From Robiginitomaculum sp. (lineage in GTDB: Bacteria; Pseudomonadota; Alphaproteobacteria; Caulobacterales; Maricaulaceae): DNA of 43,770 nucleotides. Below, in pieces: positions 9,367 to 34,895 of this stretch (position 1 is the stretch's first letter; each line of letters begins with the position of its first letter). Location: NCBI GenBank assembly GCA_016765135.1, contig JAESQN010000018.1, positions 1 through 43,770 on the forward strand. The letters are read 5' to 3'. Under the pieces are notes generated by a model. The model was not told the origin of the DNA, made no database searches, and was given only the letters and a program-made list of their open reading frames with translations. A program made the translations under genes and the position numbers.

Positions 9367-9402
9367 ATGATTGAAAACAATGAGACATTGCAATCGCATT
9401 GA
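9367..9402 (+). pseudogene. Eleven-codon ORF behind a perfect ribosome binding site
   Basis: AAGGAGG (9355-9361) stands 5 bases before ATG 9367, but the frame (MIENNETLQSH) stops after 11 codons, exactly where the sequence turns AT-rich and the defence genes begin. I read it as the start of a mobile-element gene cut by insertion of the defence island. It could instead be a leader peptide for the helicase gene that starts 44 bases later. Confidence 0.35.
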
Positions 9403-9446
9403 ATCTCAATATACATAATACCGTAGAATGTAAGAGTGGGGGGAAT

Positions 9447-11066
9447 ATGAATTTAACAAATGCGCTCCGTAAAACGGGGTCGGCGACTCTAGCCAAGCTT
9501 GTTGGTGAAATGACACTAACCGCAATAAATCAAATCCTTAGAAAAGAAATAACAGAAGGTTCTATGGTGGAAATTCTTGTAGAAAGATTAGGTTCACAAA
9601 TTCTTTCTACTTCTGAAATTAGAAAATCTATATTGGAAATATTACCTGATAAAGATTTAGAGTTTGTACACTTTGGAACAAAAGAGGGGTGTGATGTTAC
9701 TGCCCTTCGAGGGAAAAATATTGCTTGGGGACGGGAGCAAGTAAAAGCTAGAAGGCTTATTGAAATTTTGGAGTTAGACGAAAAATACCTGCCTTCTAAA
9801 AATGAAGAATTTTCGAATGCCGTTGTAATCTCACCTAATCTCCACTTATTCGACTATCAGAGAAAAATTAAATCCAAGGCAGTTAATATCCTTGCTCCGA
9901 ACAGAGCTAGATTGCTAATGCACATGCCAACTGGCGCAGGGAAGACACGGACTACAGCAGAGACACTAGTGGACTTGTGGCGGCAGAATGCAGATCCTAA
10001 TGGCCTAATAGTCTGGCTGGCTCATTCAGAAGAATTGTGTCAACAAGGAGCAGAGACTCTTGAAAAAGTATGGCATGAGAGAGGTGATATGCCACTAAAT
10101 TTCTACAGAATGTGGTCTAACTTACCAAACCCTGACATTATTGAAGGGCCGGGAGTTGTCGTAGCTAGTTTACAAAGAATATATGCTTTATGGAAAAGTA
10201 AAAATAAAGAAAATAGAGAAATAATAAAGAATATAAGAAACCAATGTTTACTTATTGTAGTAGATGAAGCCCATAAGGCGGTTGCACCAACTTATCAGGA
10301 TGCGATTGAAGCTCTGCGTAACATTCAAATCACACGAATTTTGGGTTTGACGGCAACACCAGGGAGAGGAGTTGACGTTGATGAAAACAAAAAACTTATT
10401 GAGTTTTTTAATAATACAAAAATTACTCTTCAAAACAATGATGGCACGAATTTAGGTGACCCCATTGGATATTTGCAAAAACACAAATATTTAGCAAAAA
10501 TCAAACGTAAGGCAGTGCCGACTAACATTGATATTGACTTGACTCCTAAAGAAAAAGCGCATTTTGAGCGCTTCTTTGATTTGCCCGTTTCAGCAATCAA
10601 ACGCTTAGGAGAGGACACCGAAAGAAATGCTCTGATTATTGTTGAACTTGCCAAACAGTTTGAAGCAGGGCGAACCATTATATTATTTGCTTGTTCTGTA
10701 AATCATTCTCGTATGCTTACGGATCTGTGCCGACTACGAGGTATCGAAGCACGATCTATTGACGGAATGACAGCTAAGGAAGATCGTAAGCAGTGGATAG
10801 ATGACTTCAAGCAAGGAAAGTACAAGGTTCTCATAAATTATGGAGTATTAACTACGGGATTTGATGCTCCAAATACGGATACAGTAATGATCACTAGACC
10901 AACAGGTTCTGTTGTTCTTTACTCACAAATGATTGGTAGAGGTATCCGGGGCCTGAAGATGGGAGGCAATGAAGAGTGTCTTTTAGTTGACCTAGAAGAC
11001 AACCTTAGGGATTATCCAAGTGAGTCGCAGGCTTTTAATTATTTCCAATGGCCCGAGGAGAGTTAA
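9447..11066 (+). CDS. SF2 (DEAD/DEAH, ResIII-type) helicase
   Basis: 539 residues from the ATG at 9447, which follows a GGGGGG ribosome binding site; a TTG 16 codons upstream is weaker. The N-terminal 140 residues are not recognised. The helicase core has all main motifs: PTGAGKT (about 161-167), DEAH (about 273-276), LTATPGR (about 301-307), a helicase C domain with VLTTGFDAPNTD (about 468-479), and motif VI QMIGRGIRG (about 497-505). It would translocate on DNA using ATP. It is the first gene of a tightly coupled trio with a GHKL ATPase (2-bp gap) and a PLD-like nuclease (1-bp overlap). Such SF2 helicase plus MORC-type gene pairs are described as restriction-type systems. AT-rich relative to the ardA-parB block. 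Confidence 0.85.
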   Translation: MNLTNALRKTGSATLAKLVGEMTLTAINQILRKEITEGSMVEILVERLGSQILSTSEIRKSILEILPDKDLEFVHFGTKEGCDVTALRGKNIAWGREQVKARRLIEILELDEKYLPSKNEEFSNAVVISPNLHLFDYQRKIKSKAVNILAPNRARLLMHMPTGAGKTRTTAETLVDLWRQNADPNGLIVWLAHSEELCQQGAETLEKVWHERGDMPLNFYRMWSNLPNPDIIEGPGVVVASLQRIYALWKSKNKENREIIKNIRNQCLLIVVDEAHKAVAPTYQDAIEALRNIQITRILGLTATPGRGVDVDENKKLIEFFNNTKITLQNNDGTNLGDPIGYLQKHKYLAKIKRKAVPTNIDIDLTPKEKAHFERFFDLPVSAIKRLGEDTERNALIIVELAKQFEAGRTIILFACSVNHSRMLTDLCRLRGIEARSIDGMTAKEDRKQWIDDFKQGKYKVLINYGVLTTGFDAPNTDTVMITRPTGSVVLYSQMIGRGIRGLKMGGNEECLLVDLEDNLRDYPSESQAFNYFQWPEES

Positions 11067-11068
11067 TC

Positions 11069-12814
11069 ATGGAACAAACACAGCATTATATTTTTCCTGC
11101 TAAAACAGGCTTAAGCTCTTTCAGAGATTCAGGATATAGGGATACGTCTATGGCTGTCGCTGAACTAATCGACAATTCCATTCAAGCTAAGGCCGAGACA
11201 ATACGCTTACTAGCATTTGAGAAAATTGAGCAAGGCCGCGTAAATAAACAATCATCATTGTATAAAATAGCTGTCTTTGACGATGGAGAAGGAATGCCAA
11301 AAAGTGTTCTAGAGCTCTGCTTAGGGTTTGCTCAAGGGACAAGATTAAACAAACGTGATGGAATTGGTAGGTTCGGTGTTGGTTTGCCATTAGCGTCAAT
11401 TAGCCAGTGCAAGCGTGTTACCGTATACTCTTGGCAAGATGGCAATCGCCCCTTAATGACTTACATGGATATAGATGAAGTATTAGAACAAGATCAGAAC
11501 TTCACCAATGGAACGATTGAGAAAGATATCCCAAAACAGTACACTGATGCATTAGGAAATTTGATAGGAAAATCTGGAACTTTGGTTGTTTGGGATAAAT
11601 GTGACAGAGTAAATATTAAGAAAACCCAAACGCTCTTGAGGCACATGCAAACAGGGTTCTGCCGCATATATAGGCATTTACTTGATGATAATGACTCATA
11701 TGGAATTAAGAGAGATATAAAACTATTAAAAATTAATGATGAGGAAACAGTAGAGTTTTCCCTTACAGCCAACGACCCCCTTTACTTGCTTACACCTAAT
11801 AATTTGCCTGGCTTTGAAAGTAAGGCAACGAATGAAAGTTATCAAAAAATAATAAAAGAAAAAATTGAATATGCGCCAGGAGTTTTTTCAGAGATTGAAA
11901 TTCACGCTAGCTATATTAAAACAAATCCAGGTAGGTGGAAGAATGGTTCCGAGCAAGCCAAACATTATAAAAGGAATACAGGTATATCATTTGTACGAGC
12001 CGAAAGAGAAATAGACTTTGGGTGCTTTGGTTATTATAATCCCACGGAATTAACTGAACGGTACTGGGGCATAGAAGTTAGGTTTATGCCTGATTTGGAT
12101 GAATTCTTTGGAGTAACAAATAACAAACAAGCTGTACGCGGAATAAACTATCTCGATAAAGAAGAGTTAGAAGATTATGATGATGAATACATTGAAAATG
12201 ATTTACATTTAAAATTTCGTAATAAGCTTAGTCAGTACATAAAAAACTTACATGACCAACTAAAAAAAGAAGTCAACAATAGGGCAACGGCTCCATATGA
12301 TCCTGATCGTGATGTAAATGCTCCGTCACTTCCTGCTGCCGAAGAAGCAGAGTCTGCATCTGAAAGTCTCCAAAATGACAACACGCCTACCGGAACGCAA
12401 AGAAGTGCTAAGAAAAAAACTGAACAAGAAAAAGAAGACGAAATAAGAAGTGTAATCAAGGCTGCAAATCCGAATTTAAGTGATGAAGAAGTTCTTATTG
12501 CAGTCAAAGCGTTTAAAAAATTGAAATTAGCAATTTCTTTTGAAGGCTGGTATGGCGAACAATTTTTAACCGTTAAAGGCGTTGGTCAAACTTGTACCGC
12601 AATCATCAATAAGCAACACCCGTTCTACACCGATTTATACCAAGGTATTTGCGGTGGAGAGAACACACCTGTTGCCCAAGCCATGAATCTTTTATTGATG
12701 GCGTATGCTAGAGCAGAAGATGAATTATATAATGAAAAAGATACGCTTGAAAAATTTAGAAGCAAATGGGGCGCTCATGTGAGAACATTTTTAAATGACC
12801 TGAAAACCCATTGA
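11069..12814 (+). CDS. GHKL (MORC/paraMORC-like) ATPase
   Basis: 581 residues from the ATG at 11069, preceded by GAGGAG inside the helicase gene; an in-frame ATG at 11048 would overlap the helicase end. Bergerat ATP-binding fold: N box AVAELIDNSIQA (about 29-40), G1 box DDGEGMP (71-77), G2 box GIGRFGVGL (98-106), and SGTLVVWDK (about 168). A transducer-like middle is followed by a charged linker (about 410-460) and a C-terminal helical domain with HPFYTDLYQ and LLLMAYARAEDELY. MutL/Hsp90-like ATPases of this kind clamp or remodel DNA complexes. The C-terminal domain resembles that of the other GHKL protein at 15077-16759. Confidence 0.82.
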   Translation: MEQTQHYIFPAKTGLSSFRDSGYRDTSMAVAELIDNSIQAKAETIRLLAFEKIEQGRVNKQSSLYKIAVFDDGEGMPKSVLELCLGFAQGTRLNKRDGIGRFGVGLPLASISQCKRVTVYSWQDGNRPLMTYMDIDEVLEQDQNFTNGTIEKDIPKQYTDALGNLIGKSGTLVVWDKCDRVNIKKTQTLLRHMQTGFCRIYRHLLDDNDSYGIKRDIKLLKINDEETVEFSLTANDPLYLLTPNNLPGFESKATNESYQKIIKEKIEYAPGVFSEIEIHASYIKTNPGRWKNGSEQAKHYKRNTGISFVRAEREIDFGCFGYYNPTELTERYWGIEVRFMPDLDEFFGVTNNKQAVRGINYLDKEELEDYDDEYIENDLHLKFRNKLSQYIKNLHDQLKKEVNNRATAPYDPDRDVNAPSLPAAEEAESASESLQNDNTPTGTQRSAKKKTEQEKEDEIRSVIKAANPNLSDEEVLIAVKAFKKLKLAISFEGWYGEQFLTVKGVGQTCTAIINKQHPFYTDLYQGICGGENTPVAQAMNLLLMAYARAEDELYNEKDTLEKFRSKWGAHVRTFLNDLKTH

Positions 12815-13728
12815 TGTTACTTAACTCTTTAGAATTCAAAACGAAACTGAGTGATGCAATCACTTGCTCAAAAAATGACGTGTCAGTATTCTCTGCCTTT
12901 ACTAAAGAGCCAGCGCTTATCTGGATGCTTAATTTAGCTAGACATGACAATTATTCCATTGTCTCCCGATGGCACAAACATGATCTTGTGTGTAATGCTT
13001 CTGATTTATCATGCTATGAAATATGTAAAGAACGAGGCATCCCTTTTGGCATATCTTTGGATTTGCATGGGAAAGTGTATTCTGTAGATGGCCATATTTT
13101 TGTTAGTTCAGCTAACCTGACATCAAGAGGTATGGCTCTGAACTCTAGACATAATATAGAGTTTGGTGTTGGCTTTGAAGCTAGTATTGCTGACCAAGCG
13201 AAAATCAGTAACTTAAAGAATGATGTGCTTTGGCTGAATGACGAAATATTTGAACAAATGAAATCTGAGTTGGCGGCAGCAAACGATGATACGATAATTC
13301 ACCAACAACAGTGGTCTGATAAGATCACACAATTGGTATCGCAATCCGTACAGCAATTATGGGCGCACGAATTGTTATTCTCAACACCAGAGAGCTTGTT
13401 ACGCTTAGATTTTGACGATGCCGCGCACGTTCATGATTTTGAATTGCTGGGTCTTAACATTGACTATTTAACTCCAAAGGAATTAAAAAATAAATTTGGC
13501 TCGACACGCTTGTGCAAATGGTTGAGGGAAATTCTTCGAACGAATGAAACCGTTAGTTTTGGAAAATTGACAGCGGAACTACATTCGGCAATTATTGATG
13601 ACCCAACGCCATACCGACGCGACGTTAAAGGCTTCATCGCCGTCCTATACTCATGGGCAAAATTTATGGATGACGACTTTGAAGTTTCTAGGCCAAGACA
13701 TTCTGAAATTATGTCTCTTAGAGAATAG
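12814..13728 (+). CDS. Phospholipase D-like nuclease domain protein
   Basis: 304 residues. The ATG overlaps the TGA of the GHKL gene (TGATG), so translation is coupled; a TTG one codon upstream is also possible. A single HKD-like motif is visible, LDLHGKVYSVDGHIFVSSAN (about 82-101), with His85, Lys87, Asp92 and the SSAN segment. PLD nucleases with one HKD motif work as dimers. The C-terminal half (about 150-304) is alpha-helical and not recognised. It is the likely DNA-cutting subunit of the helicase-GHKL-PLD trio. It ends 2 bp from the convergent YwbE-AlbA_2 gene. Confidence 0.72.
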   Translation: MLLNSLEFKTKLSDAITCSKNDVSVFSAFTKEPALIWMLNLARHDNYSIVSRWHKHDLVCNASDLSCYEICKERGIPFGISLDLHGKVYSVDGHIFVSSANLTSRGMALNSRHNIEFGVGFEASIADQAKISNLKNDVLWLNDEIFEQMKSELAAANDDTIIHQQQWSDKITQLVSQSVQQLWAHELLFSTPESLLRLDFDDAAHVHDFELLGLNIDYLTPKELKNKFGSTRLCKWLREILRTNETVSFGKLTAELHSAIIDDPTPYRRDVKGFIAVLYSWAKFMDDDFEVSRPRHSEIMSLRE

Positions 13729-13730
13729 CA

Positions 13731-14534
13731 TCAATTAAAACGGGATTCGCAATAATCTACTATTTCTTCTCCCATAATTTCTCTGGTTGAGGCATCTGTA
13801 CGGATATAAAAGTAGTCCTTGCCCTGTAATTTCAAAAATACTTTTTTATCTGATTTTGCAACCACAATGCCACAAACTATGAGACCATCAATCGTTTCAA
13901 ATTTGATAGTAAAATATTTATTAATTTGATTGAAGAGACTTGAAGGTAGATAATCTTTGATCAAATCTACAATCATCCTGCGATAACCGTCTATACTGCC
14001 GTCCCTTAATGATGAGTATTCCAGCCCAATCCCGATTGTTTCATCAATTTTCTTTTCTTTATCTTCCTTCACTCCAATGACTAGCGTCCCGCCATCAGAA
14101 TTTAAAAAACCTGCCAATGTTTTGGCAATAATTATTTTTGATGTGTTCTTACCATAAGCCCGAAGTTCTTTCGATTGAGGTCTATGGTTTTCAATGTCCT
14201 CTTTTGTATATTTTGAACTCCATAAAACATCTGATTTAAACTCGACATTATGAGATTTTCCAGAAGCTATGGTGCCTTTCAAGCTGCCACGAGGCTTTAT
14301 TTCTTTGACCTTGATTGCAGGTTCGGTTGTTGGGCCTCCAAGGATATTTTTTACGCGGCCTTGTTCACCAGTCACAAGCTTAACTAATACGCCATGCGGA
14401 TGATTTTGATTTTTAGTGAGAACTTCACTAACTTGGCCTTGAACTCGCAGTAGCCTAGTGCGGTCAGATTGAGGGTTGATTTCAACCAACATCCCAGCTT
14501 TGATATTACCAACAATTTTATTACCTGGGGTCAT
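13731..14534 (-). CDS. YwbE-AlbA_2 (Schlafen-type) fusion protein
   Basis: 267 residues in two parts. Residues about 5-66 match the small YwbE family (DUF2196): GNIKAGMLVEI, QVSEVLT, then HPHGVLVKLVTGEQGRVKNI. Residues about 95-260 match the AlbA_2/Schlafen DNA-binding-like ATPase domain: VEFKSDVLWS, a helix IIAKTLAGFLNSDGGTLVIGV, then a late FYIRTDASTREI. YwbE domains are of unknown function; AlbA_2 domains are found in transcription regulators and defence proteins. The gene is cotranscribed, or at least collinear, with the downstream-facing ssp genes (57-bp gap to the GIY-YIG gene). The fusion makes it a candidate sensor or nucleic-acid-binding effector. Confidence 0.72.
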   Translation of the reverse strand: MTPGNKIVGNIKAGMLVEINPQSDRTRLLRVQGQVSEVLTKNQNHPHGVLVKLVTGEQGRVKNILGGPTTEPAIKVKEIKPRGSLKGTIASGKSHNVEFKSDVLWSSKYTKEDIENHRPQSKELRAYGKNTSKIIIAKTLAGFLNSDGGTLVIGVKEDKEKKIDETIGIGLEYSSLRDGSIDGYRRMIVDLIKDYLPSSLFNQINKYFTIKFETIDGLIVCGIVVAKSDKKVFLKLQGKDYFYIRTDASTREIMGEEIVDYCESRFN

Positions 14535-14591
14535 AGTTCAGTCCGTTTATGAGTAGTGTGTAAAGTGCATTGATTAAGCACAACTAGCTAC

Positions 14592-15071
14592 TTATGAAAA
14601 TTCATCATTAACTTTGGAAAGTATTATAATAAATTCATCTGATATCCTTGTACTTTCTTGAACAACCAAACTAGTTGCGCAATAACCATTTGAAGTTACG
14701 CGAGAAATTGGAGTATATGGCATTTTATTTTCAGCTAAAAAATTCATAATTCGCATTTGCACAAGAAATTCTACGGCCCTCCTATATTCATTTGAAGTTT
14801 GCCAAAACCCCCTATACTCTGAAAGCCCACTTCCATGGAATACAATTCCTGATAAATTAACATGACCATAATTAAATACCTCACAAACTCTTTTCCGAAA
14901 AGTGCTTGAGTTAGTCAATGAGATGTGTTGTGCCGCACGCCCCATTAGGCCATTATGAGAAAAAGTTTCTCCAATATACAGGGCATTAAACTCTTGTATC
15001 AACCCCATGTATATAAAAGGGCGGCGTGTAGCGGCATAGTCTGATGAAACAGTAATTTTTGCTACATGCAT
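14592..15071 (-). CDS. GIY-YIG-like nuclease
   Basis: 159 residues from the ATG at 15069-15071. The segment FIYMGLIQEFNALYIGET (about 19-36) fits the paired beta strands of the GIY-YIG fold (here xYM-...-YIG), followed by GLMGRAAQHI with the usual Arg (about 41-50) and, later, a helix with a conserved Glu (RRAVEFLVQMRI, about 97-108). The first half-motif is Y-M-G-L rather than G-I-Y, so the call is by pattern and not certain. It lies 5 bp downstream of the minus-strand GHKL gene and is probably part of the same transcript as sspBCD. A nuclease here could be the restriction partner of the phosphorothioation genes. Confidence 0.55.
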   Translation of the reverse strand: MHVAKITVSSDYAATRRPFIYMGLIQEFNALYIGETFSHNGLMGRAAQHISLTNSSTFRKRVCEVFNYGHVNLSGIVFHGSGLSEYRGFWQTSNEYRRAVEFLVQMRIMNFLAENKMPYTPISRVTSNGYCATSLVVQESTRISDEFIIILSKVNDEFS

Positions 15072-15076
15072 CAATA

Positions 15077-16759
15077 TTACAACTTTCGAATTTGTCGCAG
15101 TATGTCACTTAGCTCCATTCCAACTTGCTCGCGATATTCATTCATGATTTTTTCTGCTTTAATCGCATCAAAGTCGGTCGCATATAAAGTCGTATACTCT
15201 CCTCTAGCCATTGCATAAAAAAGAATGTCAAGTACTCTAATCATTTCTTGATTATCGGAATGTTGACTTATTATTTCACGATATAGTTGATGAGATTTAT
15301 TCACTCTTACAAACAAACCGTCTTTAGGGTCATGTGCACGCTCCCACAATTGACCATAATCGAGCTCTTTAACGTATTGGACTCTGGCTCGGTCATTTTT
15401 TAGGTGTTTAGCTTCATCTTCACTTGCTGTTGTGTTTTTTTCTAATGCAGTTCTGCGGCTTTTATTTTTTTTCCTGTCTGTATCTGATGAAGCTTCGTCA
15501 GAAAGTTTTTGTTTTCTATTTTGTAAACTCGCAACTTTATCCAATTCGACATTTACGGTTGAATGTGGATCTAATGTAGTGATTTTTGATAGTTCGGTAC
15601 CAGCATATTGCCACGCTAGTTTACTCTTTTTCTTAGCCTCTGAAATAAGAGGAGCTAGTTGAGCGTTTGCTACTTCCGACAACCGGATTTGGCTCTTTGT
15701 GACATCAATGTTTAGTATTTCATCAGAGTCGCTTTTTAAAAATATTCGTCCCCGAAAGGAATATAAATCTTGGTCACGGGAAATATGGCCATCCAAAGAA
15801 TCTGCCCAGGATATTAATCGCCCATTTCGGTAAATGTAGAATCCATAATGAGCCGCACCAATATTGTAATGCTCTCGGCACTGATTTTGACTTATACCAT
15901 TATCTTGTTGGGAAACTGTCGGTGGATGTGGCAATTGAGTTATTTCTATTAATGCAGTTATGCTCCCATCTTGCGTAAGGTTGAAATGTTGCTTTTCTTG
16001 TACCCACTTTACACTAAGACCATCCCATGTTCGTTCATCTAATTTTGATTCTTTGGCAGATATTTCTGTTACAAAAAGCGGATCAAAAGGCTTTATAGCC
16101 TCACCATTTAAAATAATAGAGATTTTACGCTGCGCTGGATCTAATCCTTCTAGGTAATAGTGGAATATCACGCCTGCTTTGCGTTCAATTTCCTCTAATA
16201 TTTTCTCCACTTTAGGAAGCGAGTTTTGGCGTATTTTATCAATTATTATTAAAGTTCCAGAGTTTCCTGTCCCAGCGACTTCGTCAAGCTGTTGAACTTG
16301 CTCTGTGCGAGCCTGAATTAAAGTGTACTCATATTTATCTTTCAACAAATCTTGGTCCACAGTTGCGGCCATTGTAGGTTCGTTCTTCAAACGCGATACA
16401 ATAGTGAGTCTTTTGCCTAAACTTGATGAAGCGGATTTCAAACCCATTCCAAATTTAGACAATGTATCGCTTGTATAGTTCTCACTAGATGACCCTATGG
16501 ACAGGGCATTATGCAGACCCTGCGTTGACATTCCTTGACCATTGTCCGCAATGGTGATTTTATCGATTTGCAGGCGCGTTGCACTAGGGTTAGTTGTTTT
16601 AACTTCAATAGGCTTAATCGTAATATGAACCTTTGTAGCTTCTGCAGAAATAGAATTGTCCAGAATGTCTAGTACAGCAGATGTTGGACTATATCCAATT
16701 TTACCGAGCGCTTCGAATAACCGAGCTGCATTAATGCTACCTTCTTGAATGTCACTCAT
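15077..16759 (-). CDS. Second GHKL (MORC/paraMORC-like) ATPase
   Basis: 560 residues starting at the ATG 16757-16759 (RBS AGGAAA); the longer upstream frame overlaps sspD and is rejected. Bergerat fold: N box VLDILDNSISAE (about 29-40), G1 box DNGQGMS (71-77), G2 box FGMGLKSAS (102-110), and SGTLIIIDK (about 185). A charged linker (about 400-450, many Lys and Glu) leads to a C-terminal domain with VNKSHQLYREI and ILFYAMARGEY. That domain matches, residue pattern by residue pattern, the end of the GHKL protein at 11069-12814. The gene follows sspD with a 31-bp gap, so it is probably cotranscribed with sspBCD. Likely role: ATP-driven DNA clamp or remodeller of the restriction side. Confidence 0.82.
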   Translation of the reverse strand: MSDIQEGSINAARLFEALGKIGYSPTSAVLDILDNSISAEATKVHITIKPIEVKTTNPSATRLQIDKITIADNGQGMSTQGLHNALSIGSSSENYTSDTLSKFGMGLKSASSSLGKRLTIVSRLKNEPTMAATVDQDLLKDKYEYTLIQARTEQVQQLDEVAGTGNSGTLIIIDKIRQNSLPKVEKILEEIERKAGVIFHYYLEGLDPAQRKISIILNGEAIKPFDPLFVTEISAKESKLDERTWDGLSVKWVQEKQHFNLTQDGSITALIEITQLPHPPTVSQQDNGISQNQCREHYNIGAAHYGFYIYRNGRLISWADSLDGHISRDQDLYSFRGRIFLKSDSDEILNIDVTKSQIRLSEVANAQLAPLISEAKKKSKLAWQYAGTELSKITTLDPHSTVNVELDKVASLQNRKQKLSDEASSDTDRKKNKSRRTALEKNTTASEDEAKHLKNDRARVQYVKELDYGQLWERAHDPKDGLFVRVNKSHQLYREIISQHSDNQEMIRVLDILFYAMARGEYTTLYATDFDAIKAEKIMNEYREQVGMELSDILRQIRKL

Positions 16760-16790
16760 ATTTTTTCCTACTTTATCAATTATGGTTAGC

Positions 16791-17627
16791 TTATTTATGG
16801 CAAATGACACATGCTTTGCCACCGCCGTAAATATCATCAATATCTAAGTTTGTGGCATTGGGCCTTAATGGGTTTTCTACTAGCTTAGCTTTTGCCTTGG
16901 CCAGTTTCTTTTCGTGGTCTTCTTTAATCTCTTTTATGCGCTCTGGTCTCGCGAGTTCCTCTAGGGTTTCGCGTTCACACCATGTAAATTTGGCCCCGCT
17001 ATCTTTTGCTGTCTTCTCATACGCTTTAGCTTCTTCAAACGCCTTAGGGTGATGTTCCATCAAGCCAACCCATTCTATTTTTCTTTGGAAGAAGCAAAAT
17101 GTGCAGCCGCTCCGGGTTCGCCATTTGTAATATGTAGGTACGCCAACGCCTGACGAATCTAATATTTCCATAATTGCGGCTTTATCCAAACCATCTTCCC
17201 GAAATGGAAGAACCGTTATGATTTTATCTTTCTTGCCCTTATAGCCTTCTCTATACGGTTCATCGGCGCGAATTGCGACATAGCTGTAAACCTTATAGCC
17301 ATCATCAGTGAAGGCTTTAAGCCATTGCTCAAATGGATGTAGCTTTAACATCCTAGTGCACCAACGTGTCTGCGCAGACGGTAGGAAGTTATTGTACTGA
17401 GTTAGCCAATAATCAAAATCTTTGTCGGGGTTAAGTCGTTTTACCTTCTGGCCTAAGAAACCTTCTAGCCTGAAAAGAAACTCATAGACTTCTGGCAGCT
17501 CTTTACCCGTATCGGTAAAGAAGTATTCAATCTCTAATTCGGGGTGATTTTGGCGCATGTAAATAGCTAAGGCCGCGCTATCTTTACCGCCGGAAACACC
17601 TAGAACATGCTTTACTTTATCCGTCAC
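16791..17627 (-). CDS. sspD: SspD-type PAPS-reductase-like ATP pyrophosphatase of DNA phosphorothioation
   Basis: 278 residues with a GTG start that overlaps the sspC stop (GTGA), preceded by GAGGAG. The PP-loop SGGKDS is at 12-17; Cys90 (RWCTRMLK), Cys175 and Cys178 (SGCTFCFF), and Cys273/Cys276 (ACVICHK) could bind an iron-sulfur cluster, as known for the related DndC. The protein adenylates or activates the DNA backbone so that sulfur can replace a non-bridging oxygen. Together with sspB, sspC and sspA it makes the Ssp set. The C-terminal CVICHK pair is an extra metal-binding-like motif. Confidence 0.85.
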   Translation of the reverse strand: MTDKVKHVLGVSGGKDSAALAIYMRQNHPELEIEYFFTDTGKELPEVYEFLFRLEGFLGQKVKRLNPDKDFDYWLTQYNNFLPSAQTRWCTRMLKLHPFEQWLKAFTDDGYKVYSYVAIRADEPYREGYKGKKDKIITVLPFREDGLDKAAIMEILDSSGVGVPTYYKWRTRSGCTFCFFQRKIEWVGLMEHHPKAFEEAKAYEKTAKDSGAKFTWCERETLEELARPERIKEIKEDHEKKLAKAKAKLVENPLRPNATNLDIDDIYGGGKACVICHK

Positions 17628-20600
17628 TCGGCCATCTCCTCAACCTTCTCATTTGCAAGTTTTAGACGTTCCCCCATGAATGCGATGGCGGCAATCATTT
17701 GGTCGCGCGCGCCTTTGGTTTCAACGCGAAGCAGTTCTTCAATCTTATCAGTTAGACTTTCAACTCGTTTTATATCGCTGTCTAGGAGCTCAAACTGCAA
17801 CTCTACTGGCGCGGCATTTGAGTTTAATCCGACAATCATAGCCATTGAACTTCGCTTATTCGCTCTGCCGTTGATATGTGCTACGGTTTCCAAATATCGG
17901 AATGTGCGGGCTAACTCAGAAAGCTTGAGCTGGGCGTGGTGGATGTCTGGGTCAATCCAATTTTGAACTGGCTTGCCAGATGCAAGTCCTGATAAATCAG
18001 CAACGCTCTCTAACTCTCCATCAAATTTTTGTAAGCGGCCAATAAATGCTTCCACAACATGATCGCCTGACAAGCCTTTGATGTTTTTTGACCGCTCTCG
18101 TAATTCTGCCAATGCCTCCGGGGATGAGTTAGGGACTTCCAGTTCTTGCAATAAAAGCGTTTTTAGCCTCGTCAGCATTTCTGGATAAGCTTGCAATATT
18201 TCCCGTAAACCTTCTTCAAGGTTATCAGAAATTATATCTACATCATCTGTGTTAGATACGCCTGCCAGAGTTGGTATGTCATCAAATAAGAAAGTGTTTG
18301 GATCATGTGCAGCGCTGAAAACTTGTCTTACTGATTTGGCATTTCTTGAAAGTAATTGGGTGCGCCGTACCCAAAGCGGAACTGCATCAAATGTTGCAAT
18401 CAAGGCGCGCGCGACATCAATAGTTTCTCCGTATTCTAATTTTTTCTCACCTTGTAACCGTGTTGCTAGATTAGCCATTTTCGCAAAAAGCTTATGAGAG
18501 TTTTCTGAAAGCTCCATCCACCTTAAGTCAATAAGATGCGGAGCTTTGAGTAAATATCCGATGTCTGTATCTTGTATCCTTGAGCGAAATAACCCTTGGC
18601 AGTAAAAAGCAAGGCTTGACCATGTTGTGATGACAAAAGCAATCAGAAGAAGCGGTGAGACGCCAGGCGAAATACCGTATGGTGCGGCTTGCCAAAAACT
18701 ATATATATCTTGAACACTTGTTACCTTGCCTTTGGATTGTTTTAATAGCTTTTTCGTATCTTCCCATAATGTAAATAGCTCTGGGTTTTCTTTTTTAACT
18801 GGTGCACGAAATTCCCATACTCCATCACTTTTTTCCACATACAAGTTATTAGCAATTAGGATGCTTTCAAATATCCCCCATTCAGCGGGATGCGCTTGAA
18901 TCCCTAGTCGGTGCTCACCGCTCTTGTCAAACATAGCGATTAACAGTTTGCGCAATCCAGTCATGGCGGAACTAGAGGGCTTTCGCCTATTGATAAGCTC
19001 ATTATGTATGATGGGCGCTTTCGAAAATACTTTGCCAGCTAGAGCATTGACTTCCGCGCCAATAACATTCCAGCGTATTTTGTTAATTGGTGAGGTAGGT
19101 GATGTAAAAATAAGGTTGCCAATCCCACGAAATATATTCTGCTCTGCTAAATCTTGTACCCGAGCAATACGCTCACCAATTTCTCTTTTTGCTACCTTAT
19201 CTCCGAATACATCATTGCTATCCCGAATAAAGCGAAGCAAGTGTAGTTCTTCGAGCAGGCGCTTGATTTCTTCTGTGGCATCAAATTGAGCGGTATAAAG
19301 ATGAAAGCGTTGGCCATTTGAGTGAGCGTTTTTGATGCACCTTAGCACCTCAGTCTTAGTTTCTCCGTGCATAGGAAACACTATAGCAAATAACGCGAAA
19401 CCTTCTCCATCTGCTTCGTATTTGTCAACAACAGAAGCAAGGTTAGAAATAGGTGTAAATACAATATCGCTCCACCGCAAAGTTCCCGTTTCGTGATAAT
19501 GCTGTTTTGCGACCACAGGGGGCAAGGAAATGAGATCTGATAAGGTTTCTAAATCTACCGGAGGGGCATTTTTTTGAGCCGCATCCATCGCATCTTCAAA
19601 ATCAAAGTCGCTGCCTTCAAAAACAGCGTAACCACCCACATGCTTTTTGAATTTAATAAGAGATTGTTTTTTTAGAACCTGAATTGCTTTATTCACCTTG
19701 GATGATGAGTAATTCGTCAAGCAGGCCTTCAAAACCTTATCAGATGGCGTTAGGCGTGATTGATCGCGTAGCCAATCTAGTATCGCTATCGTCTTGAGTA
19801 GATCTGTATGTATATCATCCCCGCCTTTAGCAATACAGCTTTCTAAAGCGTCTATAGTTAAGGCCCAACGATGCCCTTCACTAGAAGCTAGTATGGCTCC
19901 TCGAAGATTATATTTAAGATAATCCCAGAGCATAGCCGGTGTAAATGTAGCTTGAGTTTCCAATGTTGTATGCGTGATAAAATCTTGAAAACCGAATGAT
20001 TCCGCAGAGTTCAAAAACCCAAATAAGCTTCTTTGATTTTGCCCAAAACTCTTTCTTGAAATAGGGCCAAGCAAACAGGTGGTTGCAGGATGGAGCGGCC
20101 AAGCATTCACTAAAGTTTTAGTCATTGTTTGTGAGAATAGGTGTCGGTTTTTATCAACCTGTTTAGCAATAATAGTACATGTGTTTTTGAACTTTTCTTG
20201 TTGGTTTTGTTTTGTCTCTATGGCCCGGGCAAGCAATTCAATTTGTTCGTCGCCACTAATATCCACTAAAATATCGACAAAACGGCCTTGTATTTTTGCC
20301 CACTCTTCTCTGGATTTTCGTGAAAGTTGGCTAGCATATTCTTGGAACGACTGATGGAGTACGCCTACAATTATTAGCCGACCATTTGATCTAGCGGCCT
20401 TTTCAGCAAGCATTTGCAAGAAGTACACATCACCGCCATCGACTGCCGAATGCTCTAATGTCTTGCCCATTTCATCAACGAAAACGAGTAAGCCACCGTA
20501 ATCTTTTGTGTTTATCTCTACAAGTGCGTTAATATCCTGAACTAAATCGTTCTCACTTCTACCAGGCTTGCCATCTAGCAAGCCATCTCTTAGTAGTGCT

Positions 20601-20986
20601 TCCTCTATTAAAGAGGCGACGCTTGCCTTACGTCCTTCAATAGGAACGATTTGCCATCCCTTCTTGCCAACAGGCATACGAGACCAAAATTTTTGGCACC
20701 ACTCATCCCCAACTGAATTTTTCGCCCATTTTTTCGACTTAGGGGTTCCCGAGAGCATTGCAGCAAGCGCAATACCAAGGCTAGATTTGCCGCTCCCATA
20801 TGGCCCCGTCCATGTGAATGCACCTTGTTCAGATTCGCCGACAAGTGCCGCCATAGACATGAGCGCTTGTTTTGCTGTTTCTGGAAAAATATACCCTTCA
20901 AGCGCTGCATCACTAGTAATGTCATCCACAACATTTATTGAGCGTTTATAACGGCGATTTATTTTAACCTTTTGGGATAGCAACAT
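17624..20986 (-). CDS. sspC: SspC-type large P-loop ATPase
   Basis: 1120 residues from the ATG 20984-20986, which shares one base with the sspB stop (TGATG). Walker A GPYGSGKSSL (61-70); Walker B with LLVFVDEMGK (about 166-175). After the N-terminal ATPase domain comes a long region without a family I can name. It has winged-helix-like stretches near 400-450 (KVNKAIQVLKKQSLIKF) and a helical C-terminus. SspC is the ATPase of the Ssp single-strand phosphorothioation complex, placed between the SspB nickase and the SspD PP-loop enzyme. Assignment rests on gene order plus the P-loop; the size should be compared with known SspC. Confidence 0.75.
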   Translation of the reverse strand: MLLSQKVKINRRYKRSINVVDDITSDAALEGYIFPETAKQALMSMAALVGESEQGAFTWTGPYGSGKSSLGIALAAMLSGTPKSKKWAKNSVGDEWCQKFWSRMPVGKKGWQIVPIEGRKASVASLIEEALLRDGLLDGKPGRSENDLVQDINALVEINTKDYGGLLVFVDEMGKTLEHSAVDGGDVYFLQMLAEKAARSNGRLIIVGVLHQSFQEYASQLSRKSREEWAKIQGRFVDILVDISGDEQIELLARAIETKQNQQEKFKNTCTIIAKQVDKNRHLFSQTMTKTLVNAWPLHPATTCLLGPISRKSFGQNQRSLFGFLNSAESFGFQDFITHTTLETQATFTPAMLWDYLKYNLRGAILASSEGHRWALTIDALESCIAKGGDDIHTDLLKTIAILDWLRDQSRLTPSDKVLKACLTNYSSSKVNKAIQVLKKQSLIKFKKHVGGYAVFEGSDFDFEDAMDAAQKNAPPVDLETLSDLISLPPVVAKQHYHETGTLRWSDIVFTPISNLASVVDKYEADGEGFALFAIVFPMHGETKTEVLRCIKNAHSNGQRFHLYTAQFDATEEIKRLLEELHLLRFIRDSNDVFGDKVAKREIGERIARVQDLAEQNIFRGIGNLIFTSPTSPINKIRWNVIGAEVNALAGKVFSKAPIIHNELINRRKPSSSAMTGLRKLLIAMFDKSGEHRLGIQAHPAEWGIFESILIANNLYVEKSDGVWEFRAPVKKENPELFTLWEDTKKLLKQSKGKVTSVQDIYSFWQAAPYGISPGVSPLLLIAFVITTWSSLAFYCQGLFRSRIQDTDIGYLLKAPHLIDLRWMELSENSHKLFAKMANLATRLQGEKKLEYGETIDVARALIATFDAVPLWVRRTQLLSRNAKSVRQVFSAAHDPNTFLFDDIPTLAGVSNTDDVDIISDNLEEGLREILQAYPEMLTRLKTLLLQELEVPNSSPEALAELRERSKNIKGLSGDHVVEAFIGRLQKFDGELESVADLSGLASGKPVQNWIDPDIHHAQLKLSELARTFRYLETVAHINGRANKRSSMAMIVGLNSNAAPVELQFELLDSDIKRVESLTDKIEELLRVETKGARDQMIAAIAFMGERLKLANEKVEEMAE

Positions 20987-21945
20987 CACGCGGCCTTGTT
21001 TTTAGTGCTTGCCATATAGTCAGCTTTAAGACGGTCAATAGGGTCCTCATCAAACTTGGTGGTGGAACGCAAAATTTGATTCATTCCCGCAGTATTTGAC
21101 AAACGAATTTTGCCGTTTGTTGTGTCGCTTAATTTGCTCACACGTTCTGAAAGTTCATCAACTGTCATCCTGAATATTCTTCCTGGCCCAAAGGGCTCAT
21201 GGATCAAAGCTTCAAATGATAAGGTTTGAGTGGCTGGTGATGTGTTCTTCCAAAAATCCATTAAAGAATAAGCAAACATTGCATCACTAAGGGTGGTTTT
21301 CTCTTTCCATGAAAATGCGAATGCATTCGATGCGGTTTGCTTCATCAGCCCTAATTCTGTAAATGGAGAGCTAAGAGAATCCTCGACGCTTAACCGTTTG
21401 CTGATTTGCCTCAATGAATAGGTGCCAATTAAATTGTTGATGTCTTTTCTAAGCGTTTCCGCTGCAACACCTGACCACTCCCTTCGCCGAATAACTGTTT
21501 CGAGTGCAATGAGCGCTTGCTCTCGCTCAACCTGCGCTTCTGAATATTCGTTAAATACCCACAGGAACGTAGTTTTTTTAGATTGTGTGACCAAATGCCA
21601 ATGCAAAAGCCATAGTGAAGTGGGCTTTTCAAGATAGGGATCAACACCGAACTGCGGTGCAAATATAAAATTTCCTAGGTCTGTCGCGGCATAGCCGCTT
21701 AAGGCGTCGTCATTCGATGCAATTATACCGCAGGATAATGCCCAATGACGAATCGAGGCAACCATGTTTTTACCAACGCCGAGGCGAGCTATTGCACTAT
21801 GAGCCGTAAATATTTTTTCTGCCCATTCACCTGAATTAGACTGCTCAACTGCGTCAAAGGCCTTCTTTAGCCACCCATAACGTAGGTGGAAGGTTTCGTG
21901 GCCTGTAAATTTAGGTCTATAATTTTCATTAAAATAGTTTTGCAT
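20986..21945 (-). CDS. sspB: SspB-type DUF4007 nickase of DNA phosphorothioation
   Basis: 319 residues. The DUF4007 signature is at the N-terminus: FTGHETFHLRYGWLKKAF (13-30), followed by a LGVGKNMVASIRHWALSCGI block (about 55-74). In the Ssp system this protein nicks one DNA strand at the modification site. First gene of the minus-strand sspBCD operon, divergent from sspA with 81 bp between them that hold an inverted repeat. RBS GCGGGA. All three ssp genes overlap, as expected for subunits made together. Confidence 0.88.
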   Translation of the reverse strand: MQNYFNENYRPKFTGHETFHLRYGWLKKAFDAVEQSNSGEWAEKIFTAHSAIARLGVGKNMVASIRHWALSCGIIASNDDALSGYAATDLGNFIFAPQFGVDPYLEKPTSLWLLHWHLVTQSKKTTFLWVFNEYSEAQVEREQALIALETVIRRREWSGVAAETLRKDINNLIGTYSLRQISKRLSVEDSLSSPFTELGLMKQTASNAFAFSWKEKTTLSDAMFAYSLMDFWKNTSPATQTLSFEALIHEPFGPGRIFRMTVDELSERVSKLSDTTNGKIRLSNTAGMNQILRSTTKFDEDPIDRLKADYMASTKNKAA

Positions 21946-21986
21946 AATGTCCCGCCTACTGGTACTAACCTCCAGTTAAGGACATT
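21946..21986. promoter_or_regulatory. Candidate divergent operator between sspB and sspA
   Basis: AATGTCC (21946-21952) and GGACATT (21980-21986) form a perfect 7-bp inverted repeat, with an inner CTGG/CCAG pair (21959-21962, 21972-21975) nested around TACTAACCT. It lies directly at the sspB start and upstream of sspA, so a bound regulator could control both sides. No regulator gene is adjacent. Confidence 0.45.
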
Positions 21987-22026
21987 GTTACTATTACCAC
22001 CACCGAGAATCAACAGAGAATTGTCA

Positions 22027-23160
22027 TTGACTAGCATATACTTGGATCATCAAGCCACAATCCCTTTGCACCCAAAGGTGCGAGATGTCATGCTTGATTG
22101 CATGAAAAACATAATGGGAAACCCCCACTCTGCTGATCATACATATGGGTGGGATGCCCATGAGGTAGTGGAAAATGCTCGCTCTCAGATAGCTGATTTA
22201 ATTAGCTGTGAGAATGCGGAGATTGTTTTTACATCGGGCGCGACAGAAGCTAATAACACTGTCATCAAAAGTTTAATTTCCAACAATTCCACCCGCAAAA
22301 AAATAGTTGTTAGCGCCATTGAGCATAAATGTGTTTTAGAAGCAGCTTACGCACTTGAATTACATGGATATGAGGTCATTAAAGCCCGCGTTACGGACGA
22401 TGGAAGTATTGACTTGAATGCACTTGAAAAAATACTTACCCAAGATGTTGCGCTTGTTTCTATTATGTCAGTCAATAACGAAATAGGAACCATACAGCCG
22501 ATTAAAAAAATTGCGAAAATGGCGCGCAGGCACGGAATTCTTTTTCATAGTGACGCAGCCCAAAGCCCTATGCATTCTAATATTGATGTTGATGAGTTAG
22601 GCGTTGATTTCCTCAGCCTTTCTTCTCACAAAATGATGGGGCCGAAGGGTATCGGTTGCTTGTATGTTTCTCAACAATCCAATGAATTCCTACGACCTCT
22701 GCTTAGTGGTGGCGGGCAAGAAGATGGCAGGCGCTCGGGCACGCTCGCACCATTTTTATGTGCAGGCTTTGGAGAAGCTGCACAAATATTACAAACCGAA
22801 GGGAAAGAGCTTCGTGCAAATATCAAAAAATCAAGAGACCTTTTTTGGGCGACATTATCCTCTTTAGCGCAGAATTCAGTCAAAGTGGTTGGCCCGCCCC
22901 TTACTGAAAGGCATAGCGGTAACCTCAATGTGATGTTTAACCATAATGCCCACGATTTGCTAATGAAGCTACAGCCGCACATCGCTGCGTCTACTGGTTC
23001 AGCCTGCGCCTCTGGTAGCATCGATCCATCACATGTTTTAGAAGCTATTGGCCTTGAGAGAGCCGAGGCAGAAAACTGTATCAGGTTTAGCTTTGGGCCA
23101 AGTGAGAGCCGTCAAAGCATTATAGATTCCGCGCACTTTCTATCAAGCCAATTAATTTGA
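22027..23160 (+). CDS. sspA: SspA-type cysteine desulfurase
   Basis: About 377 residues. There is no good ATG: the ATG at 21886 would add a non-homologous, antisense-overlapping N-terminus. I take the TTG at 22027 (AGAGAA 6 bases upstream) just before IYLDHQATIP; a TTG at 22021 is nearly as good. NifS/IscS features: the start motif YLDHQAT, PLP-binding SHKMMGPKGIG (Lys in the SHK triad), and the catalytic Cys in STGSACASG. It takes sulfur from cysteine as a persulfide and hands it to the phosphorothioation enzymes. It is divergent from sspB rather than the first gene of the operon. Confidence 0.85.
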   Translation: MTSIYLDHQATIPLHPKVRDVMLDCMKNIMGNPHSADHTYGWDAHEVVENARSQIADLISCENAEIVFTSGATEANNTVIKSLISNNSTRKKIVVSAIEHKCVLEAAYALELHGYEVIKARVTDDGSIDLNALEKILTQDVALVSIMSVNNEIGTIQPIKKIAKMARRHGILFHSDAAQSPMHSNIDVDELGVDFLSLSSHKMMGPKGIGCLYVSQQSNEFLRPLLSGGGQEDGRRSGTLAPFLCAGFGEAAQILQTEGKELRANIKKSRDLFWATLSSLAQNSVKVVGPPLTERHSGNLNVMFNHNAHDLLMKLQPHIAASTGSACASGSIDPSHVLEAIGLERAEAENCIRFSFGPSESRQSIIDSAHFLSSQLI

Positions 23161-23179
23161 CTGAGGCTAAGGTTTTGAG

Positions 23180-24460
23180 CTAGCGGCGAGGGGGCAGGCG
23201 GGACCCGATATCTTCGACTCGCAAAGGTGCGCTCAGTGATAGGCCATCGAGTGTCCGCGCCCGTGATAATGCCACATAAGTTTGCCCCTTCGCAAATGCT
23301 CCTCGCCCCAAGTCAATTCTCACATCATCAAGCGTCAATCCTTGGGCCTTATGGATTGTTACAGCCCACGCCAAAATGAGAGGGATTTGCTGGAAGGTAG
23401 CTTTTGTCGCCTCCTCCATTTTTTGGTCAATATCATTCCACTTATAACTTATCGCTTCCCATTTTACCGGCTCAATTTTTCTCACTGCGTCACCGCTATC
23501 AAACTTCACATACACTTCGTCACTTTTCAGGTCGGTGATTGTCCCTAGCGACCCGTTGACCCATCTTTTAAGGGGGTCGTTTTTTACAGCCATGACACGC
23601 GCCCCTTTTTTTAGCGCGAGCTGCATGGGCGCGGGCACCCTATTGGAGTTGAACCGTCCTTTAGTGATGCTGTCATATTCTATTGCAGCGGATCCCAATT
23701 CTTGAAGACCTTTCTTATTGTATCTTTCAGCGATTGCATTTGTTGCTGTCAATAAAACGGGAGTATGCCCTTGCCGGTGCGGCCTAACACAAATTTCGTT
23801 TAGTGCGGAAACGGCCTTCTCTACATTACGGTCTAGCCTAATATCCGACAAAATTCTTACAAAATGTGCATCTTTCTGCCTGAATACTTTGGAGAGCTCA
23901 AAATGAACGGGCGCGTAATTCTCCAAGACATTCGAATTGTAGGCAAAGGGTCCCCCATAGCCCATCTGCGCCAGAATGCCCCTTTCGTGCGCAGGGATCA
24001 CAGGGGGAAGTTGGAAAAAATCACCAACTAAGAGGACTCTACATCCGCCAAAAGGAAGACTGGCATCTTGTGCTTGCCTCAAAACAATATCGATACCATC
24101 CAAAATATCAGCGCGAACCATAGAAACTTCATCGATTATTATGAGCTCTACCTTTTTCCAAAGTCTATTGCGGCGCTGATTGTTTAGTGCGTTTTCGTCA
24201 ATGACTTGGAAGGGGAACCGAAAAAATGAATGAATAGTTTGCCCACCCACATTAAGAGCGGCGACACCTGTTGGTGCTAATACAACCGTGTTTGGAATGT
24301 TACAAACGTTCTTAATGAAATTGACCAGTGTTGATTTCCCTGTCCCGGCTTCGCCCGTTACAAGAATGGGGGCTCTATCTTCAGAACGAATCTGTTCCAA
24401 AATATGACTAACTGTGGGATCACTCTCGTAGCAATCAGGAAATTGTTCTAACGTTGACAA
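23180..24460 (-). CDS. Pif1/RecD-like SF1B helicase (AAA_30 type)
   Basis: 426 residues from a TTG start with a very good ribosome binding site (GGAAGGA, 6 bases upstream). Motifs: GEAGTGKST (36-44), LIIIDEVSM (about 105-113), VGDFFQLPP (about 144-152), HKAQGLTLDDV (about 367-377) and TYVALSRARTL (about 394-404). This is the SF1B (Pif1/RecD2/Dda) pattern: a 5'-3' DNA helicase. It is short, without the N-terminal extension of RecD2. It converges on sspA with 19 bp between. It may unwind DNA around nicks made by SspB or repair damage from the restriction side, or it may be an unrelated passenger. Confidence 0.85.
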   Translation of the reverse strand: MSTLEQFPDCYESDPTVSHILEQIRSEDRAPILVTGEAGTGKSTLVNFIKNVCNIPNTVVLAPTGVAALNVGGQTIHSFFRFPFQVIDENALNNQRRNRLWKKVELIIIDEVSMVRADILDGIDIVLRQAQDASLPFGGCRVLLVGDFFQLPPVIPAHERGILAQMGYGGPFAYNSNVLENYAPVHFELSKVFRQKDAHFVRILSDIRLDRNVEKAVSALNEICVRPHRQGHTPVLLTATNAIAERYNKKGLQELGSAAIEYDSITKGRFNSNRVPAPMQLALKKGARVMAVKNDPLKRWVNGSLGTITDLKSDEVYVKFDSGDAVRKIEPVKWEAISYKWNDIDQKMEEATKATFQQIPLILAWAVTIHKAQGLTLDDVRIDLGRGAFAKGQTYVALSRARTLDGLSLSAPLRVEDIGSRLPPRR

Positions 24461-24855: not shown

Positions 24856-24936
<81 letters not shown>

Positions 24937-30575: not shown

Positions 30576-30651
30576 GGCCGCATAGCTCAGTTGGTAGAGC
30601 AACGGATTGAAAATCCGTGTGTCCCTGGTTCAAATCCAGGTGCGGCCACCA
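30576..30651 (+). tRNA. tRNA-Phe (GAA)
   Basis: A complete cloverleaf: acceptor GGCCGCA/TGCGGCC, D arm AGCTCAGTTGGTAGAGC, anticodon stem-loop CGGAT-TGAAAAT-CCGTG around anticodon GAA, T loop GGTTCAAATCC, and encoded CCA (30649-30651). Its 3' half is repeated at 34830, so a mobile element is inserted right behind it. Confidence 0.97.
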
Positions 30652-30665
30652 TTTATTTACTTACA
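30599..30665 (+). repeat. attL: 3' half of tRNA-Phe
   Basis: 67 bp that match 34830-34895 with two substitutions and one indel. The two substitutions pair with each other in the T stem of the tRNA (G:C here, A:T in the other copy). Confidence 0.9.
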
Positions 30666-34829: not shown

Positions 34830-34895
34830 GCAACGGATTGAAAATCCGTGTGTCCCTAGTTCAAATCTAGGTGCGGCCACCATTTTTTACTTACA
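34830..34895 (+). repeat. attR: displaced 3' half of tRNA-Phe
   Basis: 66-bp copy of 30599-30665. Lacks the 5' half of the tRNA, so it is not a functional gene. The T stem reads CCTAG/CTAGG instead of CCTGG/CCAGG. Confidence 0.9.

Follow-up and report, generated by a model that had tools for sequence, protein, structure and literature searches.

A helicase–MORC–PLD gene trio as a recurrent, apparently undescribed partner of Ssp DNA phosphorothioation

Which restriction genes act beside the sspBCD genes of DNA phosphorothioation when neither sspE nor sspFGH is adjacent? In PMC8092258 this was the case for 2,211 of 2,678 sspBCD loci, and other restriction partners were asked about. The same question is raised by a 43,770-nucleotide stretch of Robiginitomaculum sp. 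(GenBank assembly GCA_016765135.1, 2.87 Mb; contig JAESQN010000018.1), which is one whole contig and is called the window here. A first-pass annotation of its sequence had described sspABCD with a divergent sspA and no SspE, and had proposed that seven neighbouring genes (for an SF2 helicase, two GHKL ATPases, a PLD-like protein, a GIY-YIG-like protein, a YwbE–AlbA_2 fusion and a Pif1-like helicase) form a new or little-known restriction side reading the phosphorothioate (PT) mark. The core was borne out: SspA, SspB, SspC and SspD were all found by PADLOC, adjacent at 16791-23160, and their assignments are firm at the level of sequence (Table 1). No SspE, SspF, SspG or SspH model was matched at E ≤ 0.01 by the 10 window proteins scanned, and profiles of single SspF, SspG and SspH sequences gave no match in a search confined to the window. 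Pfam matches were obtained for the GHKL pair, the SF2 helicase, the fusion and the Pif1-like protein. The evidence below supports one part of the set, the trio of SF2 helicase, first GHKL ATPase (MORC no. 1) and PLD protein, as a recurrent partner of sspBCD across bacteria.

Relatives of the trio were found by the MORC protein alone, in plasmids as well as in genomes. The plasmid search with MORC no. 1 gave 52 matching records, 40 of them listed; among those listed, 13 aligned at 33–39% identity over at least 58% of the query, and 12 were examined (H48, matching H47 in species and alignment values, was left out). All 12 loci contain the helicase, the third gene being PLD in 10 and another gene in 2; at least two of sspB, sspC and sspD are present in 10, one has sspD only in its stretch and one (L013) has none, counts that largely restate annotation since the census profiles were built from these plasmid loci. 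An alignment of the plasmid MORCs was then run against 84,980 species genomes, yielding 442 stretches, 399 of which encode relatives, and the best 80 were analysed. At least two of the three ssp genes were found in the DNA around 64 of these 80 loci, and in 43 of the 48 with more than 8 kb on both sides. The helicase accompanies the trio MORC in 76 of the 80; the third gene encodes a PLD protein in 56 and an alternative putative nuclease (REv) in 8, and none was found in 16. A complete trio together with at least two ssp genes is present in 55 of the 80. By record titles, the ssp-positive loci cover at least a dozen phyla, with many metagenome-assembled genomes. Among viral contigs, ssp genes occur in four of five scoring trio-MORC loci, and in phages MORC no. 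1 gave two partial matches. Co-occurrence with sspBCD, whose lack the first-pass annotation had named as grounds for dropping its proposal, is therefore present for the trio.

The neighbourhood of the trio was compared with that of other MORC genes. None of the 8 best other MORC loci, taken with ~9-kb flanks, contains ssp genes (Fisher p = 9e-7 against the trio MORCs; this and the later Fisher values are too strong because the loci are related to each other, above all in the SspFGH comparison below, where L043 and L060 are close relatives). In a sample of 385 genomes, 21 matched MORC no. 2, the second GHKL ATPase of the window, at E ≤ 0.001, one being its own genome. Four of the other 20 carry trio MORCs by profile, and DUF4007, the SspB domain, was present in all four and in none of the 16 other GHKL-match genomes (15 profiled, one weak match unprofiled; Fisher p = 2e-4).

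These results bear on whether the trio might be an ATP-dependent restriction module complete in itself, like SauUSI or CglI, that shares islands with sspBCD and acts independently of PT. Its parts resemble PLD–helicase restriction enzymes, MORC–helicase operons in restriction-modification contexts have been published (PMC2292703), and loci without ssp genes in the DNA examined exist (L047 and L049). Such independence appears unlikely in view of the proximity of ssp genes, which lie within ~10 kb in all but five of the well-flanked loci, and of their absence around the other MORC genes. The arrangement of the genes speaks against it as well. Across 79 loci including the window, the trio lies downstream of the ssp genes on the same strand in 52, is convergent with them as in the window in 21 and is placed otherwise in 6. 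In L029, sspB-C-D-helicase-MORC-PLD-YwbE/AlbA_2 lie in series on a single strand, the genes overlapping or separated by short gaps.

The reverse census started from DUF4007 searches in five genome samples (385, 369, 246, 194 and 247 genomes). The trio was found in at least 15 of the 48 loci examined that have two or more ssp genes (Alphaproteobacteria 4/7, own genome excluded; Gammaproteobacteria 1/10; Actinomycetota 0/3; Cyanobacteria 7/18; Bacteroidota 3/10), a low estimate, as several of the 48 stretches run to contig ends. SspFGH-type genes were found in at least 4 of the 48, also a low estimate because profiles of one sequence each were used; SspE, sought with two DUF262 proteins only, gave one weak match among the 48 (L184), again a low estimate. 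Most of the sampled loci show neither the trio nor SspFGH. The trio is a regular but not the sole partner of sspBCD. Left out of this census were the principal loci of the centre genomes G385-G388, which had been selected for their trio (in G386 another stretch, outside the ssp locus type, was also examined), stretches with weak or partial DUF4007 matches (G486 and G696 in Gammaproteobacteria; G1082, G1130, G1132 and G1167 in Cyanobacteria; G1391 in Bacteroidota), and stretches in which at most one ssp gene was found (2 of 5 in Actinomycetota, 4 of 22 in Cyanobacteria and 2 of 12 in Bacteroidota). A divergent trio in L265 (Bacteroidota) fell below the thresholds and is uncounted. Two cyanobacterial trio cases were counted after extension of their stretches and seemingly equal the Geminocystis and Cyanobacterium plasmids already in the set, and the alphaproteobacterial L142 seemingly equals L073, an Aestuariispira record.

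Co-inheritance was assessed by distance correlation over 57 loci. SspC and MORC no. 1 gave r = 0.44, with none of 2000 permutations as high; r was 0.27 for SspC and the helicase (0/2000) and 0.22 for SspD and the helicase (1/2000). Within modules the values were 0.88–0.95 for the Ssp proteins (SspC–SspD 0.88) and 0.69 for helicase and MORC. As the between-module correlations are modest and the within-module ones high, the ssp and trio modules appear to travel together yet to be exchanged. PMC6459918 and PMC8092258 likewise report that PT cores and their partners pass horizontally between genomes.

Several of these observations weigh against a fixed tie between trio and Ssp core. Fewer than two ssp genes were found in 16 of the 80 trio-MORC loci, many of them short-flanked, and in 5 of the 48 well-flanked ones, L047 and L049 having none. 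Among the 16 loci in which no third gene was found, the 10 inspected show no HKD motif after the MORC gene. The trio is present in only 15 of the 48 sspBCD loci, and the SspC–helicase correlation is modest when set against that of SspC and SspD.

Two side observations concern loci of this set. L098, a 4-kb contig labelled Heimdallarchaeota that may be misbinned, carries homologues of MORC no. 1 and of the PLD protein, and no ssp gene in its stretch. DndB belongs to the Dnd system; DndB/DGQHR-family genes were found within the Ssp loci L005, L010, L011, L015, L040, L087, L144, L145 and L250, all of which except L144 have the trio MORC, and the Pfam DndB model matched in both genes tested. A shared regulator or sensor is possible.

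The trio proteins were examined for family membership and conserved motifs. HATPase_c_3 was matched in both GHKL proteins of the window (E=9.6e-21 and 3.6e-27), for each of them the closest solved structures by sequence belong to MORC proteins, and in MORC no. 1 the motif residues E39, D42, N43, D78, G82 and G105-G112 are invariant in 12 relatives; the ATPase motifs are likewise invariant in the pair of MORC no. 2 and its L268 relative. Both proteins are thus placed among the prokaryotic MORCs. The S5 motif GhXhhpXXRhl given in PMC2292703, compared by eye only, fits GFYIYRNGRLI of MORC no. 2 and roughly GISFVRAEREI of MORC no. 1. The helicase has RadD and SauUSI as nearest solved relatives by sequence; an assignment as RadD itself was rejected (132 of 720 bits, below the NCBIfam cut-off). 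The PLD protein is weak by Pfam (PLDc_2, E=2.6e-4, below the curated cut-off), and the PLD call of the first-pass annotation was upheld by motif and fold. Across 35 relatives H86, K88, S100 and N102 do not vary, the HKD motif pattern is found in 59 of 61 cases, and the AlphaFold model (predicted local distance difference test, pLDDT, 94.6) matches PLD-superfamily folds, phosphatidylserine synthase first, then SauUSI, with Nuc and R.NgoAVII lower and TM-scores modest. The HxK...(G/S)SxN motif and the fold together place it in the PLD/HKD superfamily. It counts against a nuclease assignment that the fold hits span lipid enzymes as well as nucleases and cannot separate the two; because they do not single out nucleases, we infer nuclease function from the genomic context. 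The pieces of the trio are those joined in one chain in SauUSI and PbeA, plus a MORC.

The variant third gene provides further information. Of the 10 REv genes, 8 were inspected and all 8 show VD-x-QVKS, a pattern that would suit a PD-(D/E)xK nuclease, and PADLOC labels the start of REv 'Effector, Endonuclease' in both tested, which suggests that the third slot of the trio is a nuclease slot. SspFGH-type genes were found in 6 of the 10 REv-variant loci (plasmids included) versus 0 of 66 PLD loci (Fisher p = 1e-6, inflated by relatedness). The two sets of genes lie side by side in L013, L043, L052, L055, L060 and L095; in L013, an Agrobacterium plasmid, SspF and SspG (PADLOC-confirmed) and an FtsK protein stand beside helicase–MORC in place of ssp genes. 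Some SspFGH loci may thus possess a MORC arm as well, one so far undescribed. The coexistence also bears on the idea, named in the first-pass annotation as one that would overturn its proposal, that helicase, GHKL ATPase and PLD protein are divergent SspF, SspG and SspH. Both sets are three-gene cassettes beside sspBCD, as SspABCD–SspFGH of Vibrio anguillarum FF-93 illustrates (PMC8092258). However, the available text of that source describes a Walker A motif in SspF and an FtsK-like C-terminus in SspH and names no helicase, MORC or PLD in the cassette. No PADLOC SspF-H model matched the trio, and since a variant trio and SspFGH-type genes coexist in one locus, six times over, the trio is not SspFGH; we give orthology practically no chance.

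The window was also compared with the other known systems. SspABCD–SspE shares the PT core, but SspE is one DUF262-DUF1524 protein (PMC10952713) and none was found in the window. DndCDEA–PbeABCD likewise pairs a PT core with a restriction side that includes an SF2 helicase and a PLD (HKD) domain (PMC6459918), although its core is Dnd and, in the available text of PMC10853773, PbeA is a fusion partnered by an ABC ATPase and by DndE-like and small proteins, not by a MORC. The trio helicase matches PbeA models over the helicase core only and no PbeB-D match was obtained with PADLOC; with GHKL rather than ABC ATPases, the trio was rejected as orthologous to PbeABCD. PMC10853773 further describes, in the vicinity of Dnd genes, HKD–SF2 fusions and URI (GIY-YIG) nucleases that stand alone. 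Prokaryotic MORC restriction-modification operons share MORC, SF2 helicase and HKD or other nuclease with the trio, but those of PMC2292703 are described with methylases, and no PAPS-reductase, desulfurase or GIY-YIG partner occurs in the text available; the species of its figure 1 include Anabaena variabilis, whose trio MORC may be among those sequences. Type-4 BREX shares homologues of SspB, SspC and SspD (DUF4007, BrxC, PAPS reductase) but carries PglZ and BrxL (PMC12839542), neither of which was matched by the ten proteins scanned at 9399-23157. In Acinetobacter, most Ssp loci have no sspE, and the region that holds them contains further genes for restriction endonucleases, according to PMC12421847. 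The PLD-type ATP-dependent endonucleases SauUSI and R.NgoAVII combine a PLD domain with an SF2 helicase, as in the trio. SauUSI is a single-chain type IV enzyme directed at methylated DNA, and we know of no MORC in, or PT link of, either enzyme.

The genome of the window has one GmrSD_N (DUF262) match, on another contig (C22; L133:7682-9379). The protein is assigned to HEC-06/Orf5 by its scores (689/630 bits, against only 64 bits for SspE) and is possibly, by its sequence, a further modification-dependent restriction enzyme of the same genome.

The second MORC gene is of a different lineage. MORC no. 2 was rejected as a close copy of MORC no. 1, as the two share 29% identity over residues 47-236 and fall in separate tree clades. 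In a tree of 36 hand-chosen rows, 20 trio MORCs lie on one branch (99/98), labelled ssp by trio membership though L049 shows no ssp genes, and MORC no. 2 pairs with a copy from the Bacteroidota locus L268 (100/100) in the other clade; in the tree built, the two MORC lineages of the island are shown with separate origins. The catalytic N-box of MORC no. 2 has D where the trio MORCs have E, and the same holds for the L268 copy and six other clade members. Other members of this clade sampled are without ssp genes nearby, two annotated ones lying beside dcm, vsr, HNH and helicase genes. L268 came from the DUF4007 search, regardless of MORC, and its MORC no. 2 homologue is the only close relative met (32% identity over 575 aa, 283 bits; best listed plasmid match of MORC no. 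2, 172 bits). It is followed by a homologue of the GIY-YIG-like protein (31% over 113 aa, E=4e-14), and the pair lies downstream of sspB-C-D. This one other case supports MORC no. 2 with the GIY-YIG-like protein as a second, rarer Ssp partner in the same island (module 2, the trio being module 1). The YwbE–AlbA_2 fusion, DUF2196 (YwbE) plus SLFN_AlbA_2 by Pfam, has its homologue in L029 directly after the PLD gene. The links of the pair and of the fusion to ssp genes are one independent case each.

Searches beyond these loci gave little. Among 90 genomes of L268's order, 11 had matches to MORC no. 2, whole-length in the L268 genome only. In plasmids (tblastn), YwbE–AlbA_2 gave 6 partial matches, none over more than 80% of the query, and the GIY-YIG-like protein no match; for the latter the best E in 61 near relatives, besides its own, was 0.0135. 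Scans of viral contigs led no further, whether with MORC no. 2 (singly or in a pair alignment) or with YwbE–AlbA_2. The Pif1 helicase had no best profile match above 200 bits in any other locus examined and was rejected as a part of the system. The seven genes therefore look like two separable modules plus accessories and not like one restriction side: of the original proposal, the trio stood, the MORC no. 2–GIY-YIG-like pair and YwbE–AlbA_2 are each backed by a single case, and Pif1 fell away.

Module 2 must also be weighed against contrary points. It is known from two loci, the L268 MORC lies on a long tree branch, and a transposase gene and a gene for an 817-aa protein stand between sspD and the MORC–GIY-YIG pair in L268. 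The GIY-YIG call of the first-pass annotation is weak: the Pfam values are E=0.019 and 0.13 for the window protein and E=0.0055 for its L268 relative, all below the curated cut-off, and a single-sequence structure model of the window protein reached a pLDDT of 35.8. In Nocardiopsis L018, a GHKL gene has an annotated GIY-YIG neighbour and no ssp match, and that GIY-YIG protein aligns with the window one at only 16%. The 817-aa protein (L268:13137-15590) has a weak GHKL match at 119-183 and its gene overlaps that of the MORC no. 2 homologue; no counterpart was seen in the window.

MORC no. 2, the GIY-YIG-like protein and YwbE–AlbA_2 might instead form a back-up suicide or regulatory set. To our knowledge AlbA_2 domains are not nucleases by themselves, which would fit such a role, and a back-up suicide effector role has been proposed for GIY-YIG (URI) nucleases that stand alone at Dnd locus edges (PMC10853773). 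Recurrence of the MORC–GIY-YIG-like pair near sspBCD in another phylum speaks against it, and we consider the suicide or regulatory role a less than even prospect.

MORC ATPases close around DNA upon ATP binding, and SF2 proteins of the trio-helicase type move on DNA. A working model that we judge somewhat probable is a PT defence island in which SspABCD would put sulfur marks on host DNA and two restriction modules would share this mark. In module 1, the operon convergent with the ssp genes, the RadD/SauUSI-like protein would engage and move on DNA, the MORC ATPase would serve as a scaffold and as a clamp driven shut by ATP, and cutting would fall to the PLD protein. In module 2, co-directional with sspBCD, the second MORC would act with the putative GIY-YIG-like nuclease, and YwbE–AlbA_2 may be an accessory nucleic-acid-binding protein. 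Unmarked invading DNA would be attacked while PT protects the host, by analogy with SspFGH, for which this polarity has been published (PMC8092258).

The polarity could also be the reverse. A PT-triggered trio would be idle without PT, become active on sensing PT in host DNA and be non-toxic alone; SspE works in this way (PMC8092258), and trio loci without ssp genes would be easier to tolerate. It tells against the model of attack on unmarked DNA that L047 and L049 fit PT triggering, or distant ssp genes, better. However, such loci may have ssp genes elsewhere in the genome, and no domain known to bind PT is among the Pfam matches of the trio. PT triggering is a tentative alternative, and we lean towards attack on unmarked DNA, with evidence that does not decide.

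The literature searched yielded no account of the trio, nor of any MORC protein associated with Ssp, mention in subscription journals, figures or supplements being possible. The trio thus appears to be a real, recurrent and so far undescribed partner module of Ssp phosphorothioation. It offers a concrete, testable answer for part of the partnerless sspBCD loci, at least 15 of 48 sampled versus 4 with SspFGH-type genes. MORC ATPases are known mainly from eukaryotic gene silencing; those of bacteria gain a defined candidate immune context here, and their mechanism would become testable in E. coli. Whether MORC ATPases were recruited at least twice independently to DNA-sulfur immunity, once with helicase and PLD and once with a GIY-YIG-like protein, as arms stacked on one PT mark, and whether the first is a common missing partner of sspBCD loci without a known restriction side, we regard as evenly poised.

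The genes form two runs. sspB, sspC, sspD, the GHKL ATPase no. 2, the small protein and the YwbE–AlbA_2 fusion are on the minus strand with sspA divergent, and the trio runs on the plus strand from the left; the runs converge, with 2 bp separating their last reading frames, those of the PLD and YwbE–AlbA_2 genes. The sspA coordinates are those of the open frame, and the true start is probably later, as the family match starts at residue 51-52.

Table 1. Genes of the Ssp island, with window coordinates and the evidence for each assignment.
Feature	Coordinates	Strand	Evidence
Trio gene 1: SF2 helicase	9447..11066	+	Pfam ResIII and Helicase_C; Walker A and DEAH box in sequence; RadD/SauUSI nearest solved
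Trio gene 2: prokaryotic MORC (GHKL) ATPase no. 1	11048..12814	+	HATPase_c_3; nearest solved MORC2, MORC4, MORC3
Trio gene 3: single-HKD PLD-superfamily protein, putative nuclease	12811..13728	+	HKD conservation, fold model
YwbE (DUF2196)–AlbA_2 fusion, accessory	13731..14534	-	Pfam; homologue (207 bits) in L029
Small GIY-YIG-like protein	14592..15074	-	Weak Pfam; L268 homologue (BLASTP 4e-14)
MORC (GHKL) ATPase no. 2	15077..16759	-	HATPase_c_3; open frame from 16840, start at 16759 likely
sspD, PAPS-reductase-like	16791..17627	-	PADLOC SspD 440 bits
sspC, large BrxC-like ATPase	17624..20989	-	PADLOC SspC 1121 bits, BrxC 285 bits
sspB, DUF4007	20986..21945	-	Pfam DUF4007 E=2.8e-83; PADLOC SspB 311 bits
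sspA, cysteine desulfurase, divergent	21886..23160	+	Pfam Aminotran_5; PADLOC SspA 429 bits (DndA 417)
Pif1/RecD-like SF1 helicase, neighbour	23180..24460	-	Pfam PIF1 E=6.3e-32

The island is patchily distributed, as DUF4007 is present in only 2 of 14 genomes of the genus, its own included. Left of the trio lie an ArdA antirestriction gene (8565-9146) and a ParB-like gene (6044-7828), which places counter-restriction beside a putative restriction locus. A tRNA-Arg gene lies right of the ssp genes at 24856, and a search for attachment repeats around it gave only a 13-bp word. Further right, part of tRNA-Phe is directly repeated over 66-67 bp (95.5% identity) at 30599-30665 and 34830-34895; the repeat flanks a tyrosine integrase gene (33510-34730), probably marking a small element integrated in tRNA-Phe and separate from the ssp genes. 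At 43664-43770, self-BLAST revealed a tandem repeat that shifts in 12-bp steps and reaches the contig end, which is perhaps why the assembly stops there.

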